Shown in pieces: positions 54,638 to 64,000 of a DNA stretch of 64,000 bases. The position numbers were made by a program, and so were the translations under genes. This DNA is from Halomonas cerina (GTDB lineage: Bacteria; Pseudomonadota; Gammaproteobacteria; Pseudomonadales; Halomonadaceae), in the NCBI RefSeq assembly GCF_014192215.1, contig NZ_JACHXP010000002.1, forward strand, positions 186,001 through 250,000, in the 5' to 3' direction. The stretch's first letter is position 1. Each line of letters starts with the position of its first letter. The notes beneath the pieces are model-generated. The model worked only from the letters and a program-made list of their open reading frames with translations, ran no database searches and was not told the origin of the DNA.

Positions 54638-55870
54638 ATGGTTGATACAACAGTCATCTTGCTCGGTGTGGTCATGTTCACCGTGGTCGTCATCGGCCTG
54701 GTTCTGGTGATCCTGGCTGCCCGCAGCAGGCTCGTCAGCACCGGGGATGTGACCATCGAGGTCAACGGCGACCCTGAGCACACCCTGACCACTCAGGCCG
54801 GCGGCAAGCTGCTGAACACCCTGGCGGCCAATGGCATCTTCCTCTCCTCCGCCTGCGGCGGCGGTGGCTCCTGTGCCCAGTGCAAGTGCGTCGTGGAGGA
54901 AGGGGGTGGGGCCATCCTGCCCACCGAGGAGTCCCACTTCACCCTGCGCGAGAAGAAGCAGGGCTGGCGCCTCTCCTGCCAGGTACCGGTGAAGCAGGAC
55001 ATGAAGATCGAGGTCCCGGAAGAGGTCTTCGGCGTCAAGCAGTGGGAATGCGAGGTCATCGCCAACCCCAACGTCGCCACCTTCATCAAGGAGCTCAACC
55101 TCAAGCTGCCCGAGGGGGAGGAAGTGGCCTTCCGTGCCGGTGGCTATGTGCAGCTCGTGGCCCCGCCCTACGACATCAAGTTTTCCGACTTCGACATCGA
55201 GGAGGAGTACCGGGGCGACTGGGAGAAGTTCGGGCTGTTCGATATCTCCCACAAGAACCACGAGGAAGTCATCCGCGCCTACTCCATGGCGAACTACCCG
55301 GACGAGAAGGGCATCCTCAAGTTCAACATCCGCATCGCCACGCCGCCGCCCAACACCAGCCATCCGCCGGGCCTGATGTCCACCTATGTGTTCAGCCTCA
55401 AGCCCGGGGACAAGGTCACCGTGATGGGGCCCTTCGGCGAGTTCTTCGCCAAGGACACCGACGCCGAGATGGTGTTCATCGGGGGTGGGGCCGGCATGGC
55501 ACCGATGCGCAGCCACATCTTCGATCAGCTCAAGCGGCTCAAGACCAACCGCAAGATCTCCTTCTGGTATGGCGCGCGCTCCTGGCGCGAGACCTTCTAC
55601 AACGAAGAGTACGACCAACTGGCCGAGGAGTTCCCCAACTTCGAGTGGCACCTGGCGCTCTCCGATCCGCTGCCCGAGGATAACTGGGACGGGCCGACCG
55701 GCTTTATCCACAACGTACTCTATGAGAACTACCTCAAGGAGCATCCGGCGCCTGAGGACTGCGAGTACTACATGTGTGGGCCGCCCATGATGAACGCCTC
55801 CGTCATCAAGCTGCTGCTTGATCTGGGGGTCGAGCCGGAGAACATCATGCTGGATGACTTCGGCGGCTAA
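54638..55870 (+). CDS. nqrF: Na+-NQR subunit F, NADH-oxidising
   Basis: Entry point for electrons. N-terminal helix, then a [2Fe-2S] domain ([20 protein letters not shown], with the fourth cysteine in WRLSCQ), an FAD domain (RAYSMANYP) and an NADH domain ([20 protein letters not shown]). It ends DDFGG. 410 aa, full length. A clear terminator follows, so nqrF is probably the end of the main nqr transcript. Confidence 0.97.
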
Positions 55871-55894
55871 CGTTCCCCGGTCGATGATACAATG

Positions 55895-55921
55895 GGGCTG
55901 GTCCACCGGACCGGCCCTTTT
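55895..55921 (+). terminator. Intrinsic terminator after nqrF
   Basis: Stem GGGCTGGTCC / GGACCGGCCC with one G-U pair and an ACC loop, followed by TTTTGTG. It lies between nqrF and nqrM, so nqrM may depend on readthrough or on its own promoter; TACAAT at 55888-55893 overlaps the foot of the hairpin. Confidence 0.8.
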
Positions 55922-55966
55922 GTGCTTTAGGAACAGAATTGGCCTGAATACGACAGGAGAGACCAC

Positions 55967-56233
55967 ATGAGTACCTTTCTCGTTGTGCTGGCGTTCATGC
56001 TGCTGATCATGGCGGCCATGGCGATCGGCGTGATCATGGGGCGCAAGCCCATCGCCGGATCCTGTGGTGGGCTCAACCAACTCGGCCTCAAGCAGGGATG
56101 CGAAGTCTGCGGCGGCAAGGACGAGGTCTGCGAGGAGCAGAGCCGCAAGCCTGGCGACGCCCGGCACAGTGCCCGTCGTCGCAGTGATGAGAGCCGCGGT
56201 GCCGACCTCGGCTATGACGCTACCCGGCGGTAG
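55967..56233 (+). CDS. nqrM: Na+-NQR maturation protein NqrM
   Basis: 88 aa, DUF539 family. One N-terminal helix (FLVVLAFMLLIMAAMAIGVI) is followed by the cysteine motif GSCGGLNQLGLKQGCEVCGG and a further cysteine in EVCEEQ, used to deliver iron to the NqrD/E cluster. AGGAGAG precedes the ATG. The C-terminal ~35 residues are polar and variable. In many genomes apbE lies between nqrF and nqrM; here it does not. Confidence 0.93.
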   Translation: MSTFLVVLAFMLLIMAAMAIGVIMGRKPIAGSCGGLNQLGLKQGCEVCGGKDEVCEEQSRKPGDARHSARRRSDESRGADLGYDATRR

Positions 56234-56561
56234 GCCCTCAGAGCCACCTCTTTCTTACCGTCCCTCTTCCCAGCCTCTAGTCAGCCCCTAGCGGCGGCCC
56301 GGCCCCTCGCCGAAGAGGGCGCCTGGGGCCCGCCGACCCCCTTCCGTTATAGCTCGCCTTGAGCGTCGAGGCCCGGCCCTTGCCGGGCCTCGATTCTTCC
56401 CGTCTCTGTCCTCCTAGCTCGCTGAGCCCCGCCTTGCTGACATTTCTTGACCCGTGATCGCTGGATGAGCGAGTCGCGGAATAAAGCCAAAGTATGAAGC
56501 AGTTAATGCTAATGCACTTGAGAAATAACAGTTACGCAGAGCAGGAGCCCATTGAGTAACC
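56234..56561. other. Intergenic region between nqrM and the polysaccharide locus
   Basis: No coding sequence recognised. It holds a hairpin CGAGGCCCGGC / GCCGGGCCTCG at 56367-56392 with an ATTCTT tail, a likely terminator. From about 56450 the sequence becomes clearly AT-richer than the rest of the window, marking the change to the surface-polysaccharide locus. Confidence 0.6.
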
Positions 56562-56659
56562 TTGTGTAGACAAAACTTAGCTTTTGTAACTGAACGGTAA
56601 GCCACAATCGGTCATTCGGTCTGAGAGGAAAAACCGGCAACCTCTCGGGCGGTAGCGTG
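56562..56659 (+). promoter_or_regulatory. Leader of the polysaccharide operon with ops (RfaH) element
   Basis: A possible promoter is TTGTGT (56562-56567), 17 nt, TGTAAC (56585-56590). Between the promoter and the first gene, GAGAGG/CCTCTC (56623-56646) can form a hairpin, and GGCGGTAGCGTG (56648-56659) is an exact copy of the E. coli ops element. Ops pauses RNA polymerase and loads the antiterminator RfaH. It lies 163 nt upstream of the acyltransferase ATG, where ops sites usually lie in O-antigen and capsule leaders. The promoter call is weak; the ops match is exact. Confidence 0.75.
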
Positions 56660-56822
56660 GCTTGACGGCGCATACCCCGACGGGTGCATGACGCACAGTA
56701 GGCTATCCGGGCGGGTGGCCGGCGGTCGGTAACGTGTTTCCAGTTAATACATTATGGCTTGGCACGTGCGCAGGCACGTGATCCAGGGACCTCGAAGCCG
56801 TAAAAGTAATACGAGGAAATCG

Positions 56823-58877
56823 ATGAGCACCTATTATCGCCCCGAAGTGGATGGCTTGCGGGCAGTCGCTGTGATACCCGTCATCCTGTTCCACGCCGGT
56901 CTTGACGCCTGGAGTGGTGGTTTCGTCGGTGTCGATATCTTCTTCGTGGTCAGTGGCTACCTGATCACCGGCATCATCTATAACGAGATTCGTCAGGGGA
57001 ATTTCTCGATCATCAAGTTTTATGAGAGACGGGCCAGGCGCATACTGCCGGCCCTTTTCTTCGTGAGCTTGACGTGCCTCGCCATAGCCTGGATATGGAT
57101 GCTGCCGAAAGAGTTCAGTAAACTCAGCGAGAGCCTGGTGGCCGTCAACCTGTTTGTCTCCAACATCTATTTCTGGCAGGACGTGGACTATTTTGCCGGT
57201 CCCGCCGACATGCAACCCTTTCTCCATACCTGGAGCCTGGCCGTTGAGGAACAGTTCTATCTGTTCTTCCCCCTGGTCATGCTCGTACTGGGCATGCTGA
57301 GGAGGCACTACCTTCTGGTCATGGTGTTCCTGGCCTTTCTCCTCAGCTTGATCCTGGCAGAATATGGCGCACGCAATCATCCTGCGGCCAACTTCTATCT
57401 ACTGCCGACACGCGCCTGGGAGTTGATGGCCGGTGCGCTGATCGCGATTGGCCTCCATGAACGCGAACTCAAGTTGCCTAGGGCAATCCATGATGGCGGG
57501 GCCTTCCTCGGCCTGGGCATGATCCTTTACTCGATCTTCCTCTTTGACGAAAGCACGCCCTTCCCCAGTCTGTGGGCCCTGATTCCGGTACTCGGGGCTG
57601 CACTGGTGATCCTGTTCGCGAGACATGACAATGCAGCGGGCAAGTTGCTGGCTGCGAAGCCTGTCGTAGGCATCGGACTGATCAGCTACAGTGCCTACCT
57701 GTGGCATCAACCTGTCTTTGTATTCGCCAGGGAGCGTAGCTTCGGTGCTCTCTCGCAGAGCGATTTCCTGCTGCTGAGTCTGCTGTCCCTGATCCTGGCT
57801 TATTTCTCCTGGCGCTTCGTGGAGCAGCCATTCCGCGACAAACGCAATTTTAGTCGGGCGACGATTTTTTCCGGTGCCTTGGCCGGCACGGTCTGCTTCA
57901 TTGGTATCGGGCTTTACGGCACCTACACACAAGGCATTCCCTGGCGCCTGAATGCTGCCGTGGCCCAAGTGGCCGATGTGAGAAATGACCGGCACCTGCA
58001 GTCGGAAGGCTGCCAGTCCATGCCAGGCAGGGTCATTCCCATCGAAGAAGCCTGTGAGTACAACGGCGAGTACATGGACAAGGTGGTGGTGTGGGGCGAT
58101 AGCCAGGCTACGCCTCTGGTCGGGCCGGTGGCAGAAAGGGCGAAAGACCTGGGGTTGGGTGTGAAGCAGTTTGTCTATACGAACTGCCTGCCGGTGGCGG
58201 GTTATACGCGAAGCGATGAGCCCGAGTGTGGAAGCTTCAATGAAGACGCTATGAACTACATGGTCGATAACGACCATGTCAAGCTGGTGGTCATGCTGGG
58301 TCGCTATCCCCTCCAGTTCGAAGGGGAAACCTTCGATAACCGGGAAGGGGGCATCGAGGAGGATAATACGGTGTATGCGGTTCCTTTCGACAAGGCAAAG
58401 ACTGTCGATCCGGCGATGATGACGAATCGCGTGCCTCTCGTCGGGGAGCGCATTCAGCAGACTGTCAACACCCTCGTCAGCGATGGAAAGAAAGTGGTGC
58501 TTATTTATCCGGTGCCTGAAGTGGGATGGGATGTTCCCTTTACCCTGGCCAAGGAAATGATGTACGGCAAGGCAAGAGCCGCGCCGCTGTCGACCAGTCA
58601 TGAGGTCTTCAAAGAGCGGGTCGCCTCCGCCTACGAACAACTCGACCTGGTCGAGAATCACAAGAATCTTCTGAAGATCAAGCCTGAATCCCTGTTTTGC
58701 GATACCTATCTGACAGGACGGTGTACAACGCAGGTGAACGATGAGCTGCTTTATTATGACAACAACCACTTGAGCAAGGCCGGCGCTACGCTGGTGGTCG
58801 ACCATATCTTCGATGAGATGAAGGAGGTCGGATGGTTGAAGGACAAGCGAGTCGAGCTGGGCTGGTTGAATGACTGA
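56823..58877 (+). CDS. O-antigen-type acyltransferase with SGNH domain
   Basis: 684 aa. The N-terminal acyltransferase-3 domain has about ten helices (EVDGLRAVAVIPVILFHAGL, GFVGVDIFFVVSGYLITGII, FYERRARRILPALFF). The C-terminal periplasmic SGNH domain has VVVWGDSQATPLV with the nucleophile serine and NNHLSKAGATL with the catalytic histidine. Proteins of this architecture acetylate O-antigen or other surface sugars. ATG 56823 follows GAGGAAA; the longer frame at 56754 has no ribosome-binding site. First gene of the polysaccharide locus. Confidence 0.92.
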   Translation: MSTYYRPEVDGLRAVAVIPVILFHAGLDAWSGGFVGVDIFFVVSGYLITGIIYNEIRQGNFSIIKFYERRARRILPALFFVSLTCLAIAWIWMLPKEFSKLSESLVAVNLFVSNIYFWQDVDYFAGPADMQPFLHTWSLAVEEQFYLFFPLVMLVLGMLRRHYLLVMVFLAFLLSLILAEYGARNHPAANFYLLPTRAWELMAGALIAIGLHERELKLPRAIHDGGAFLGLGMILYSIFLFDESTPFPSLWALIPVLGAALVILFARHDNAAGKLLAAKPVVGIGLISYSAYLWHQPVFVFARERSFGALSQSDFLLLSLLSLILAYFSWRFVEQPFRDKRNFSRATIFSGALAGTVCFIGIGLYGTYTQGIPWRLNAAVAQVADVRNDRHLQSEGCQSMPGRVIPIEEACEYNGEYMDKVVVWGDSQATPLVGPVAERAKDLGLGVKQFVYTNCLPVAGYTRSDEPECGSFNEDAMNYMVDNDHVKLVVMLGRYPLQFEGETFDNREGGIEEDNTVYAVPFDKAKTVDPAMMTNRVPLVGERIQQTVNTLVSDGKKVVLIYPVPEVGWDVPFTLAKEMMYGKARAAPLSTSHEVFKERVASAYEQLDLVENHKNLLKIKPESLFCDTYLTGRCTTQVNDELLYYDNNHLSKAGATLVVDHIFDEMKEVGWLKDKRVELGWLND

Positions 58878-58940: not shown

Positions 58941-59984
58941 ATGAAGATACTTATTATCGGCAACATGGGGTATGTCGGACCCGCCGTCGTCCGTGAGCTG
59001 GCCCATCGCCATCCCGAGGCCATTCTCCATGGCTATGACAATGCCTATTTTGCGCACTGTCTGACCGGTACTCCCTTCCTGCCCGAGCGCTATCTTTCCC
59101 AGCAGTACTTCGGCGATGTCCGCGAGATCCCCGACCGCTTTCTTGAAGGCTATGAGGCGGTGGTCCAATTGGCGGCCGTGTCCAATGATCCGATGGGAAG
59201 CCGATTCGCCGCGGTCACGAGAGAAATCAATCAGGAAGCTACCGTGTCGATTGCCCGCCAGGCGGCCAGGGTCGGCGTGCAGAACTTTGTCTTCGCCTCG
59301 AGCTGCAGTGTCTATGGCGTCGCCACGGGAGGGCCACGCACGGAGCATGACCCGGTAGCTCCCATGACGGATTACGCCAAGTCCAAGATCGGCAGCGAGG
59401 ATGCCTTGGCCAGCATCGAAGGCGATATGGTGATCACAAGCCTGAGGTTTGCCACGGCCTGTGGCATGTCGGATCGCCTGCGGCTGGATCTGGTCCTCAA
59501 CGACTTCGTCGCCTGTGCCCTCAGTCAAGGCAAGATTAGCGTCCTCAGCGATGGCTCACCCTGGCGTCCTCTGATCGATGTCAGCGACATGGCGCGGGCC
59601 ATCGACTGGGCGATCCAGCGAAGGGCCGACAACGGCGGCAGGATACTCAGCCTCAATACGGGCTCCAATGAACGTAACCATCAGGTCCGCGACCTCGCCG
59701 CTGCCGTGGCCGATGCGGTGCCGGGTACCACGGTGAGCATCAACACCGATGCGGCGGTCGACAGTCGTTCCTATCAGGTCGATTTCAGTCTCTTTGCTCG
59801 CTTGGCGCCCGACCATCAGCCCCTGATGACCCTGTCCGATTCGATCCAGGGATTGATCGATGGGTTAACGGGCATGGCGTTTGCGGACGCGGAATTCCGC
59901 TCCTCCCCCTTGATGCGCCTTCAGGTGCTCCAAGCACATGTCGACTCGGGACGCCTCTCGGAAGGCTTGCAGTGGCTGGAATGA
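58941..59984 (+). CDS. NAD-dependent epimerase/dehydratase (extended SDR)
   Basis: 347 aa nucleotide-sugar enzyme. The Rossmann motif is IIGNMGYVGPAVVRELA (GxxGxxG). The catalytic region is ASSCSVYGVATG and the YxxxK motif is DYAKSKIG. RPLIDVSDMARAIDWAI is typical of sugar epimerases or reductases. AGGGA precedes the ATG. The exact sugar cannot be told. With rfbF next to it, a CDP-sugar is likely. Confidence 0.88.
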   Translation: MKILIIGNMGYVGPAVVRELAHRHPEAILHGYDNAYFAHCLTGTPFLPERYLSQQYFGDVREIPDRFLEGYEAVVQLAAVSNDPMGSRFAAVTREINQEATVSIARQAARVGVQNFVFASSCSVYGVATGGPRTEHDPVAPMTDYAKSKIGSEDALASIEGDMVITSLRFATACGMSDRLRLDLVLNDFVACALSQGKISVLSDGSPWRPLIDVSDMARAIDWAIQRRADNGGRILSLNTGSNERNHQVRDLAAAVADAVPGTTVSINTDAAVDSRSYQVDFSLFARLAPDHQPLMTLSDSIQGLIDGLTGMAFADAEFRSSPLMRLQVLQAHVDSGRLSEGLQWLE

Positions 59985-60093: not shown

Positions 60094-60870
60094 ATGAAAG
60101 TGGCAATTCTGGCAGGCGGCTTTGGTACTCGACTGAGCGAAGAGACATCGATTCGTCCCAAACCCATGGTCGAAGTGGGTGGACGGCCCATCCTGTGGCA
60201 TATCATGAAGCTCTATTCACATCATGGCTTCAAGGACTTTGTCATTCTGGGGGGATACAAGGTCGAGCAGATTCGCGATTACTTCCTGAACTATCGGGGA
60301 AAACGAACCGACTATACCATCGACCTCAAGAGCGGAAAGGTCGAGTGGCTGCAAGGCATCAACGAGGACTGGACCGTGACGGTCCTCGATACCGGGGCCG
60401 ATGCCCTGACAGGCGGGCGTATCAAGAAGGCCATGCATTTGTTGTCCGATGGCCCGTTTTGCCTGACCTACGGTGATGGCGTCAGCAATGTGGACATCAA
60501 TGCGCTGGTCGATGCCCACAAGGCCTCTGATCGCTGGTGCACGCTGACCGCCGTGACCCAACCCGGACGCTATGGGGCCTTGCGCTTGAACGAGGATGCC
60601 AACCGCGTGATGGCCTTCCGCGAAAAGGGTGCCGTCGATGGTGGCCTGATCAATGGTGGTTTCTTTGTCTGTGAGCCGGAAGTCTTCGACCTGATCGATA
60701 ATGACCAGACGACCTGGGAAAATGAACCCATGGAACGGATGGTGGAACTTGGCAAGCTGGGGTATTACCACCATCAAGGCTATTGGCAGAGCATGGACTC
60801 GCTACGCGACAAGATGGTGCTGGAGAAGGCCTGGGAAAATAACCCGCCCTGGAAGGTCTGGAAGGATTGA
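60094..60870 (+). CDS. rfbF: Glucose-1-phosphate cytidylyltransferase
   Basis: Makes CDP-glucose, the entry to CDP-deoxysugars. The N-terminus KVAILAGGFGTRLSEETSIR and the PKPMVEVGGRPILWHIM motif identify the cytidylyltransferase rather than RmlA. DGPFCLTYGDGVSNVDINAL is the catalytic aspartate region. 258 aa, normal. The expected partner, CDP-glucose 4,6-dehydratase (rfbG), is not next to it. An 8-bp inverted repeat (TTCTGGGT 60027-60034, ACCCAGAA 60075-60082) lies in the upstream gap. Confidence 0.95.
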   Translation: MKVAILAGGFGTRLSEETSIRPKPMVEVGGRPILWHIMKLYSHHGFKDFVILGGYKVEQIRDYFLNYRGKRTDYTIDLKSGKVEWLQGINEDWTVTVLDTGADALTGGRIKKAMHLLSDGPFCLTYGDGVSNVDINALVDAHKASDRWCTLTAVTQPGRYGALRLNEDANRVMAFREKGAVDGGLINGGFFVCEPEVFDLIDNDQTTWENEPMERMVELGKLGYYHHQGYWQSMDSLRDKMVLEKAWENNPPWKVWKD

Positions 60871-60984
60871 TAGCGGAATATCCAACCAATAAAACACGAG
60901 TCAATACAAGGAGGTCGCGGGAATAGGGTGCGGGCATGAGTGAGAGCAGTGCCTGTTAATCCCCTGGAGACTCGCGAGAAGCTG

Positions 60985-62298
60985 ATGATCATAGTGGATA
61001 CGGCGCTAGCCAAGCGAGAGGCCCAGCACAACCCCATACGGGTCGGCATGATCGGGGCAGGATTCCAGGGCAGTGGTATCGGCTTGCAGATCATGACCGC
61101 GACACCCGGCATGCGCCTGTGTGCCGTAGCCAACCGCAACGTGGACTCGGCCATCGGGGTCTATGACCAGGTCGGGGTTCAGCCCACGCGTTGTGACACC
61201 CAGGGTGATCTGGAAGCAGCGATTGCGGCTGAACGTCCTGCGGTTATCGAGGATGCCGTGGCGTTGGCCAGCGCCGCGGGGCTGGATGCCATCATCGAGG
61301 TCACGGGCTCCGTGGAGTTTGCGGCCCATGCCGTGCTGGCGGCCATCGAAAGCGGCAAGCACGTCATCCAGATGAATGCCGAACTCGATGGGACCATTGG
61401 TCCGATCCTGAAGGTCAAGGCCGATCGTGCCGGCGTCGTGTACAGCTTCTCCGACGGGGATCAGCCTGGCGTCCAGATGAACCTCTACCGGTTCGTCCAG
61501 GGGTTGGGCGTGACGCCCGTTCTGTGCGGCAATATCAAGGGATTACATGACCCCTACCGCAACCCCGCCACCCAGGAGAGCTTTGCAAGACGCTGGGGAC
61601 AAAAGCCTGCCATGGTCGCGTCCTTCGCCGACGGGACCAAGATATCCTTCGAGCAGGCGATCGTCGCCAATGGCACGGGGATGCAGGTGGCGCGCCGCGG
61701 CATGCTGGGACCGGATTTCTCGGGCGGTGATCCTAGCGCGCCTCAGGTACCGATTGAAGAGACCCTGAGTGCCTTCGAGGCCCATCTCGATCCGGCCGGT
61801 CCGGGGCTGGTGGACTATGTTGTGGGCGCGCGGCCCGGGCCCGGCGTGTTCGTGCTTGGGGCACACGCCCATCCCCGTCAGCAGCATTACCTTGAACTCT
61901 ATAAGCTGGGGAAAGGGCCCTACTACTGTTTTTACACGCCTTACCATCTCTGCCACTTCGAGGTCCCGACGTCTGTTGCCCGCGCCGTTCTCTTCCAGGA
62001 CCCGGTGCTCACCCCGGCAGGCGGCCCCCGAGTCGGGGTGATCGCGGTTGCCAAGAAAGCCCTTGCCGAGGGAGAGCAGATTCACGAGTTCGGCGGTTTC
62101 GAGGTCTACGGGGTCACGGAGAACATGGAGGTGATCCGTCGCGATAACCTGTTACCCATCGGGCTGGCCCTGGACTGCAGGCTGGCGAGAGCGGTTGACC
62201 AGGACACGCCCTTGACCTTCGATGACGTTGTCATCCCCGAAGGGCGACTGGTGGATCGTCTGTATGCCGAGCAAGAGCACGAGTTTGCTGGCCAATAA
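60985..62298 (+). CDS. NAD(P)-dependent oxidoreductase with SAF domain
   Basis: 437 aa. The N-terminal Rossmann fold (IRVGMIGAGFQGSGIGLQI) resembles homoserine dehydrogenase. The C-terminal SAF-type domain reads AVAKKALAEGEQIHEFGGFE and then NLLPIGLALDCRLARAV. Such proteins occur in LPS and capsule clusters, but their reaction is not established. I chose ATG 60985 (MIIVDTALAKREAQ) because relatives begin this way; a GTG at 60940 would add 15 residues. GGAG lies upstream. A role in making an unusual CDP-sugar is inference. Confidence 0.8.
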   Translation: MIIVDTALAKREAQHNPIRVGMIGAGFQGSGIGLQIMTATPGMRLCAVANRNVDSAIGVYDQVGVQPTRCDTQGDLEAAIAAERPAVIEDAVALASAAGLDAIIEVTGSVEFAAHAVLAAIESGKHVIQMNAELDGTIGPILKVKADRAGVVYSFSDGDQPGVQMNLYRFVQGLGVTPVLCGNIKGLHDPYRNPATQESFARRWGQKPAMVASFADGTKISFEQAIVANGTGMQVARRGMLGPDFSGGDPSAPQVPIEETLSAFEAHLDPAGPGLVDYVVGARPGPGVFVLGAHAHPRQQHYLELYKLGKGPYYCFYTPYHLCHFEVPTSVARAVLFQDPVLTPAGGPRVGVIAVAKKALAEGEQIHEFGGFEVYGVTENMEVIRRDNLLPIGLALDCRLARAVDQDTPLTFDDVVIPEGRLVDRLYAEQEHEFAGQ

Positions 62299-62335: not shown

Positions 62336-62884
62336 ATGAAATTTCATCAGACTAACCTCAACGATGCCTGGCTGATCGAGCTAGAGCCACGCGGCGATTC
62401 TCGCGGACACTTCGCCCGCACCATGTGCCACGATGAGTTTGCCCGGCATGGCTTGATCTCGGACTTCGTGCAGCAAAACATGTCTTACTCGGCACAACGG
62501 GGCACCTTGCGGGGGTTGCACTATCAGCGACGTCCCTATGCCGAGGCGAAGCTGATACGCTGCCTGAGAGGGGCCATCGTCGATGTCATCGTCGATATCC
62601 GTGAAGACTCGTCATCCTATCTGCAACATCAGTTGTTCGAGCTGACCGACAGGAATCAGCAGCAACTGTATGTGCCACCCGGGTTCGCGCATTCCTTCCT
62701 GACGCTGAGCGATGACGTGGAAGTCAGCTATCTGGTGTCGGCACCCTATCATCCCGCCTCCGAGGATGGCCTGAGGTATTCGGATGAGGCCCTGAATATC
62801 TCATGGCCCACTCCCATTACCGTCCTTTCCGAGAAGGATGCCAACTGGCCGTTGATCAGTGAGCGTACGGAACGATTGTTCTGA
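62336..62884 (+). CDS. dTDP-4-dehydrorhamnose 3,5-epimerase family protein
   Basis: 182 aa cupin of the RmlC family. GDSRGHFARTMCHDEFARHG, the active-site histidine in TLRGLHYQRRPYAEAKLIRC and VPPGFAHSFLTLSDDVEVSY are present. In this cluster the substrate may be a CDP- rather than a dTDP-keto sugar; no rmlA, rmlB or rmlD is seen here. It starts 37 nt after the oxidoreductase gene. Confidence 0.88.
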   Translation: MKFHQTNLNDAWLIELEPRGDSRGHFARTMCHDEFARHGLISDFVQQNMSYSAQRGTLRGLHYQRRPYAEAKLIRCLRGAIVDVIVDIREDSSSYLQHQLFELTDRNQQQLYVPPGFAHSFLTLSDDVEVSYLVSAPYHPASEDGLRYSDEALNISWPTPITVLSEKDANWPLISERTERLF

Positions 62885-63096: not shown

Positions 63097-64000
63097 ATGA
63101 CAAAAGTGATCGCTGTTATTCTTACCTATAATCGGAAGGAATTGTTACGCCAATGTCTCGATGCGGTATATTCGCAGACGACGCCGTGCGATCAGGTGTT
63201 TGTCATCGACAATGCCAGCACCGATGGTACTCAAGACATGCTAGAGGACATGCCCTATCCGGATCTCCTTATCCATAGACTGTCACAAAATCTCGGTGCT
63301 GCAGGGGGATTCAATATCGGATTTCGGCTTGCGTACCAACATGGCGCCGATTTTGTCTGGATGATGGATGATGATGTCATCCCCAAGCCTACCGCCCTGC
63401 AGCGCTTGCTTGAGGCGAATGCGTTATTGAAGACACAGGAAGTCGAGTATTCGTACTTGCTCTCCACCGCCTTCACGGAAGGGGGGCTGGTGACCAACAC
63501 CCCCGAAGTCAGCCACCATAAGAACCGAATAGGTTACCATAGTTGGCCATTGCTGGCCGAACATGGGCTGGTCGCGGTGAGCCGCGGTACCTTTGTCTCG
63601 ATTCTGGTACCGCGTCTGACCCTGGAAACGTCCGGGCTGCCGATCCTATCGATGTTCATCTGGGGAGAAGATGCCGAGTTCACGCTAAGAATCACCAAGA
63701 CAGCGCCTGGCTTCCTGGTGGGGGCGAGTCAGGTGCTGCATGTGCGTCAGGGAAGTGGTTCGATCAGCATCCTGTCGGAAGATAATCCGGCGCGATTCAA
63801 ATACTATAAACACTTCATACGCAACAATATCTATATGGCAAAACAATATAGACCCTTTCACCGACGGGTTTCCGTGTTGCTTCGCTATCTGCGTATGGCG
63901 TTTACATTGTTGGGTCGCGGTCAATACCAGAAGGCGCGTGTCGTGATGCAGGGGCTAATGGCGAGTATGTATTTCGCTCCCCATCTCGAGGCGGCCGGGG
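63097..64000 (+). CDS. Family 2 glycosyltransferase, C-terminus beyond window
   Basis: 301 codons are open to the right edge with no stop. The N-terminus is MTKVIAVILTYNRKELLRQC, and the nucleotide-sugar region is VFVIDNASTDGT. The metal motif is FVWMMDDDVIPKPT, and the catalytic acidic residue lies in MFIWGEDAEFTLRITK, a layout like that of rhamnosyl- and galactofuranosyltransferases. Codon use is less GC-rich than in the housekeeping genes, as expected for a polysaccharide locus. Sugar and acceptor are unknown. Confidence 0.88.
   Translation, partial: MTKVIAVILTYNRKELLRQCLDAVYSQTTPCDQVFVIDNASTDGTQDMLEDMPYPDLLIHRLSQNLGAAGGFNIGFRLAYQHGADFVWMMDDDVIPKPTALQRLLEANALLKTQEVEYSYLLSTAFTEGGLVTNTPEVSHHKNRIGYHSWPLLAEHGLVAVSRGTFVSILVPRLTLETSGLPILSMFIWGEDAEFTLRITKTAPGFLVGASQVLHVRQGSGSISILSEDNPARFKYYKHFIRNNIYMAKQYRPFHRRVSVLLRYLRMAFTLLGRGQYQKARVVMQGLMASMYFAPHLEAAG

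Follow-up and report, generated by a model that had tools for sequence, protein, structure and literature searches.

In Escherichia coli, the ops element lies in the leaders of the O-antigen operon rfb and the colanic acid operon wza, and the leader described here shares with them an identical 12-nt ops, read in the sense orientation ahead of a long polysaccharide operon. Read as sequence, the two E. coli leaders have a short stem (CTGG/CCAG, TTGG/CCAG) that stops 1 nt short of ops, although folding of the rfb stretch gives a different pairing at minimum energy. JUMPstart elements of gammaproteobacterial polysaccharide leaders are described as including a conserved stem-loop (PMC2864571). This stem-loop, modelled as JUMPstart RNA (RF01707 in Rfam), and the hairpin reported below both sit in polysaccharide leaders; the model, however, finds no match at E up to 1 between positions 56300 and 56900 of our sequence, and gives only a weak match (22.7 bits against a gathering threshold of 35) at the third ops of this genome. 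The leader differs from those of E. coli rfb and wza in its sequence and in its hairpin, and also in a 141-nt block that is common only to two leaders of this one locus.

The window analysed is a 64,000-nt stretch of contig C2 of Halomonas cerina. A preliminary description of it had pointed to an exact, sense-oriented ops element in a polysaccharide leader 163 nt before the first gene, with a hairpin immediately upstream and a long operon downstream, and all these parts held up. The element GGCGGTAGCGTG matches exactly at 56648-56659 on the forward strand and neither strand of the window contains a second exact copy. Being exact, it contains the pause-inducing TG at positions 11-12 and the loop bases G4, G5 and T6, and 163 nt separate it from the ATG of the first gene at 56823. 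Twelve further sequences in the window match ops with 1-2 mismatches; with 13 matches in total against 11.3 expected, these near-matches are meaningless.

The ops element is followed by 14 co-directional genes that span 16.7 kb, from 56823 to C2:259480, and end 408 nt before the next ops. The first gene (56823-58877, +) encodes an AT3 acyltransferase fused to an SGNH domain (Pfam PF01757, PF19040). It is followed on the same strand by genes for an NAD-dependent epimerase/dehydratase (58941-59984; PF01370), a sugar nucleotidyltransferase (60094-60870; PF00483), an oxidoreductase with a DRL catalytic domain (60949-62298; PF21135), a member of the dTDP-4-dehydrorhamnose 3,5-epimerase family (62336-62884; PF00908) and a family 2 glycosyltransferase assigned by Pfam and cut by the window end (63097-64000). 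All ten operon genes profiled with Pfam are of polysaccharide type: the first five are an acyltransferase, a sugar epimerase, a nucleotidyltransferase, a DRL-type oxidoreductase and an RmlC-like epimerase, and the other five types are glycosyltransferase, ABC transporter, UbiA-type prenyltransferase, FAD oxidase and short-chain dehydrogenase. Counting both strands, the operon contains 7 intrinsic terminators where 10.4 are expected, which makes no case either way.

The leader combines the ops element with a hairpin and with a block of similarity that encloses both. The hairpin (56622-56647, +) consists of a 7-bp stem with arms TGAGAGG (56622-56628) and CCTCTCG (56641-56647) around a 12-nt loop, and its last base directly abuts ops with no gap. 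The stem stands out against shuffles of its own 45 nt (p = 0.008) and appears in two minimum-energy folds, that of the 52 nt that end with ops and that of the 142-nt leader; in the leader fold, pairing with the first three ops bases lengthens it. A similarity search revealed that the block at 56520-56660 (+) recurs in the leader of the second ops of the locus (C2:259756-259900), with 75% identity over 141 nt. Its two halves are 78% and 71% identical and the flanks fall to the shuffled level, so that the similarity fades outside the block. No other match to the block was found at E <= 0.001 in the 90 genus genomes, and a search of 55850-56900 revealed no sigma-70-type promoter.

A hairpin abutting ops is found in other leaders of the genus as well. 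We analysed 118 ops sites, comprising 104 of the 107 sites from 16 genomes (two of the three left out lie near contig ends) and 14 single, first-listed sites from elsewhere. At 62 of the 90 intergenic sites, a strong stem stops no more than 3 nt from ops, compared with 5 of the 28 sites inside genes; in 20 shuffles, the count had a mean of 23 and a maximum of 30. With one site taken per leader cluster, the combined significance over 35 clusters is p = 9e-7, against p = 0.79 for the 28 in-gene sites. Individually, 8 of the 35 clusters reach p < 0.05, and the integrase-associated leaders fail. The hairpin recurs in different leaders with a stem sequence that differs between clusters, suggesting that the pairing rather than the sequence is kept, and these comparisons suggest that natural leaders repeatedly carry a hairpin directly against ops.

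The preliminary description had also predicted processive antitermination and a functional RfaH in this Halomonas-like organism, had suggested a search for other ops sites, and had named a missing RfaH homologue or a lack of conservation before homologous loci as grounds for rejection; neither ground was borne out. The genome encodes two NusG-family proteins, NusG itself on contig C16 and a separate RfaH on contig C10. The latter, 180 residues long, scores 174.9 bits against the TIGR01955 profile (cut-off 144.5) and shares 36% identity with E. coli RfaH (5OND, 2OUG). Its closest relatives among the 80 loci fetched are from Halomonas species, at 79-84% identity, and the named relatives include Halomonas, Billgrantia, Litchfieldella and Salinicola. 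Residue roles in ops contact and in autoinhibition, the latter including E48 and F130, have been described for E. coli (PMC5995543, PMC7593976), and most of these residues are kept here. The H. cerina protein retains E. coli K10, R16, H20, Q24, T72, R73, E48 and F130, of which K10, H20 and R73 contact ops in E. coli, and in an alignment of 26 of the 80 related loci all are invariant except H20 (23/26). It differs from E. coli RfaH in an N-terminal extension of ~14 residues and in four substitutions, R23N, N70R, A71S and I93V. R23 touches T6 in E. coli and is asparagine in this protein and in 26 of the 26 aligned relatives; the effect of an R23A replacement in E. coli is reported as slight (PMC5995543). 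A further residue named for autoinhibition in E. coli, I93, aligns with valine. In the AlphaFold model of the RfaH of a relative, two C-terminal helices (139-149, 152-168) are predicted at low confidence, with a block pLDDT of 31-53, and the best PDB match of this model is E. coli RfaH with ops DNA (5OND). A strong RfaH match is present in 89 of the 90 genus genomes, with H. cerina counted, and the one exception is 77% complete.

The whole H. cerina genome holds seven ops copies, compared with one copy of the reversed-pattern control. Three of the seven lie on one strand of the same locus within a span of ~35-36 kb; the other two locus copies, at C2:259888 and C2:277942, are exact, and each stands before a wza-like gene, with Poly_export matches at C2:260250 and C2:278275. 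A further copy at C8:100423 is likely a chance occurrence, given that its next gene is convergent and its hairpin insignificant (p = 0.43). In the genus as a whole, 537 exact ops face 135 reversed patterns over 90 genomes, a fourfold excess, and ops outnumbers the control in 81 of the 90. Upstream of the best-scoring wza (Poly_export) gene of 30 genomes, drawn from 54 with a match among 61 searched, an exact sense ops is present in 20 of the 30 loci. The remaining 10 loci have no exact ops, one of them carrying a one-mismatch copy, and the scanned loci contain no ops within one mismatch on the other strand.

Beyond the genus, ops counts divide according to RfaH. Over 194 genomes of the order, ops and its reversed pattern are equally frequent overall (238 vs 236). 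Genomes of the order with no RfaH-like paralogue (n = 130) average 0.58 ops against 1.20 control matches, those with a weaker paralogue (n = 22) 1.55 against 1.05, and those with an RfaH over the cut-off (n = 36) 2.44 against 1.58. Within this last set, the seven genomes of the own family reach 4.57 against 1.57, and the 29 outside it show a slight excess of 1.93 against 1.59. One order-level family, f8 (G096, G251, G273, G227, G174, G139), has 40 ops and no control match, and its matches to the RfaH profile are partial. A clear ops excess is therefore seen in the own family and in this six-genome group with partial RfaH-profile hits.

From these sequence comparisons we conclude that the element is very probably a working ops, serving as the RfaH pause and loading site in the 5' leader of the polysaccharide operon. 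By analogy with E. coli, from which pausing, loading, fold switch and antitermination at this ops are inferred, RNA polymerase would start upstream, transcribe the leader and pause once U11 of ops has become the RNA 3' end. Autoinhibited RfaH would then be recruited by the non-template strand of ops exposed at the pause, and its C-terminal domain would refold after recruitment; RfaH would stay on the polymerase, keep NusG and Rho off and couple ribosomes, so that the 16.7-kb operon could be transcribed to its end. The two further ops would serve the next two operons of the locus likewise. With the polymerase paused at U11, the RNA 3' end would be 11-13 nt beyond the end of the stem, which is about the distance at which the hairpin of his-type pauses sits, and this position suggests that the hairpin could stabilise the pause. 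The ops-paused complex is described as biochemically distinct from a hairpin-stabilised pause (PMC11001881); since that work sets the two apart, their joint effect in natural leaders is a testable matter.

Could the 12-mer have arisen by chance from the composition of a GC-rich genome and have no function? Some copies have, as the reversed pattern occurs ~1.5 times per genome and 21 of the 104 fully sampled ops sites lie inside called genes, the calls coming from a simple custom caller that is rough in AT-rich stretches. In favour of a working element, 71 of the 83 intergenic ops with a downstream gene called read into that gene in sense. For the copy in the window, a chance origin has a very low probability. 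At the genus-wide reversed-pattern rate, and assuming ~4.0 Mb per genome, 0.024 hits are expected in 64 kb, and three hits on one strand within 35 kb, as seen at this locus, have P = 4e-7; the leader block common to two of the three ops, the hairpin and the conservation of ops before wza likewise speak against chance. We regard it as very unlikely that the element is an RfaH-independent pause or leader signal, acting in ribosome loading or through another factor, with the hairpin as its main part. The ops sequence is described as a consensus pause in itself (PMC5995543), and several copies occur in some genomes with no detected RfaH-like paralogue, seven of them in G272; that genome gave no profile match at all, not even to NusG, so the search may have missed an RfaH. 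Against an RfaH-independent signal, the loop bases needed for RfaH and dispensable for pausing are kept exactly, RfaH is present in 89 of the 90 genus genomes, and genomes that lack RfaH show no ops enrichment.

The neighbourhood of some ops sites raises another alternative, in which leader and ops primarily serve integron-type integrases as a recombination site, the RfaH sequence being kept through the entry of cargo there. At 9 of the 118 sampled sites, the 3' end of an integrase gene follows ops directly in antisense, and the one integrase tested (C10:27922-28857) matches TIGR02249, the integron integrase profile, with 402.9 bits; two ops of the H. cerina genome adjoin integron-type integrases. 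These sites are the ones at G000:C10:14125 and 28879 (-), designated L005 and L006, and L026, L027, L030, L079, L092, L097 and L136. A primarily recombinational role also draws on nine leaders behind guaA in relatives, described below, whose common sequence stops at the last ops base. The genes called near the three ops of the locus, however, include no recognised integrase, nor is one seen at most of the sampled sites, and in a second leader family sequence after ops is common to 80 of 231 pairs; as an account of this leader, a primarily recombinational role is extremely unlikely. A working RfaH site in a polysaccharide leader is the reading that we retain.

In relatives, ops also occurs outside polysaccharide loci. 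One leader family lies ~190 nt behind guaA (L161-L188, L141-L143, L251-L264), where a common leader with ops or a one-base variant precedes differing cargo. Nine of the 28 guaA-type loci passed an exact tail filter, which fixes the last ~24 nt, and in these the 150 nt before ops have a median identity of 90%, compared with 0.55 for the 150 nt after ops (0.56 when shuffled). Among the remaining guaA-type loci, some have an exact ops, some have GGCGGTAGTGTG and in some none was found by pattern. The cargo is often lower in GC, with 36-42% in the first two kb of three islands and 37-58% over 3 kb in 14 others. Profile matches identified the upstream genes guaA and katG in one island apiece; elsewhere the names come from similarity of the leader or the gene start.

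The guaA cargo is enriched in matches to anti-phage defence components. Of the 28 genomes with any match to this leader, 17 have a leader match reaching ops and a contig that continues; 12 of these carry an exact ops and five a one-base variant, ending in T at L256 and reading GGCGGTAGTGTG at L257-L260. By a rule set after the first results, the first same-strand ORF of at least 250 residues after ops was scored against PADLOC (E <= 1e-10); the ORFs used earlier, one or two per island, had been partly chosen by eye. The first gene is PADLOC-positive at 10 of the 17 sites, with L262, which has no qualifying ORF, scored as a miss, compared with 3 of 20 random window genes (Fisher p = 0.007). Positives comprise 7 of the 12 exact and 3 of the five variant sites, and the matches include Lamassu, Druantia, Dnd and type I restriction components. 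PADLOC holds generic kinases, helicases and methylases, which explains why the control lies above zero; accordingly, the kinase-like match at L252 and the helicase match at L256 may be non-defence genes.

The second leader family, mostly behind katG, behaves differently: 3 of its 10 sites are PADLOC-positive (p = 0.31 vs the control), and at least one of the 10 (L147) is not behind katG. Among the 22 of 30 loci that passed the filter, median identity is 0.81 upstream and 0.58 downstream of ops, and the break after ops is unclean, with 80 of 231 pairs above 0.7 downstream. Loci L191-L220 of this family occur in several copies per genome, in some 5-13 kb apart, and at six of these loci the ops is a variant with C as its last base (GGCGGTAGCGTC), followed, as judged by eye, by an integrase tail. 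The H. cerina genome has no match to a guaA- or katG-type leader, so the link to defence applies to relatives only. In the literature covered by our search, no report of RfaH or ops control of anti-phage defence was found.

Two other arrangements were observed. Locus L148 (G008:C9:68500-88400) has four exact ops in ~8 kb between repeated modules; by their gene starts, its neighbours are VgrG-like and secretion effector-like, giving it the look of a type VI secretion effector region. A study of Yersinia RfaH (PMC12607645) reportedly mentions type VI secretion. At L007 (G000:C38:5561), L035, L099 and L129, a AGGGcaTGGGAA..CCCGG..CAATCCCC leader with ops lies 10-34 nt before a permease-like gene.

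A tentative reading of this survey, which we consider possible but rather doubtful, is that RfaH in Halomonas and its relatives is a general gate for horizontally acquired cargo and not mainly a regulator of surface polysaccharides, with fixed leaders of hairpin plus ops behind core genes such as guaA and katG acting as expression docks. Defence islands, secretion-effector modules and integrase-borne cassettes would be swapped in after ops and would be read well only by RfaH-modified polymerase, and the dock may double as the recombination site of integron-type integrases. The variant ops at 5 of the 17 guaA sites and the common downstream sequence in the second family weaken this proposal.

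What is new here is the leader family and the breadth of the predicted regulon; the function of the element is deduced from homology and conservation. RfaH/ops control, worked out in enterics, would thereby extend to a large halophilic group of bacteria, and the H. cerina locus offers three linked operons for its study. According to the wider survey, anti-phage defence islands may be under the control of one antiterminator that switches them on; if this is true, deletion of a single gene could turn off part of the defence of these bacteria.
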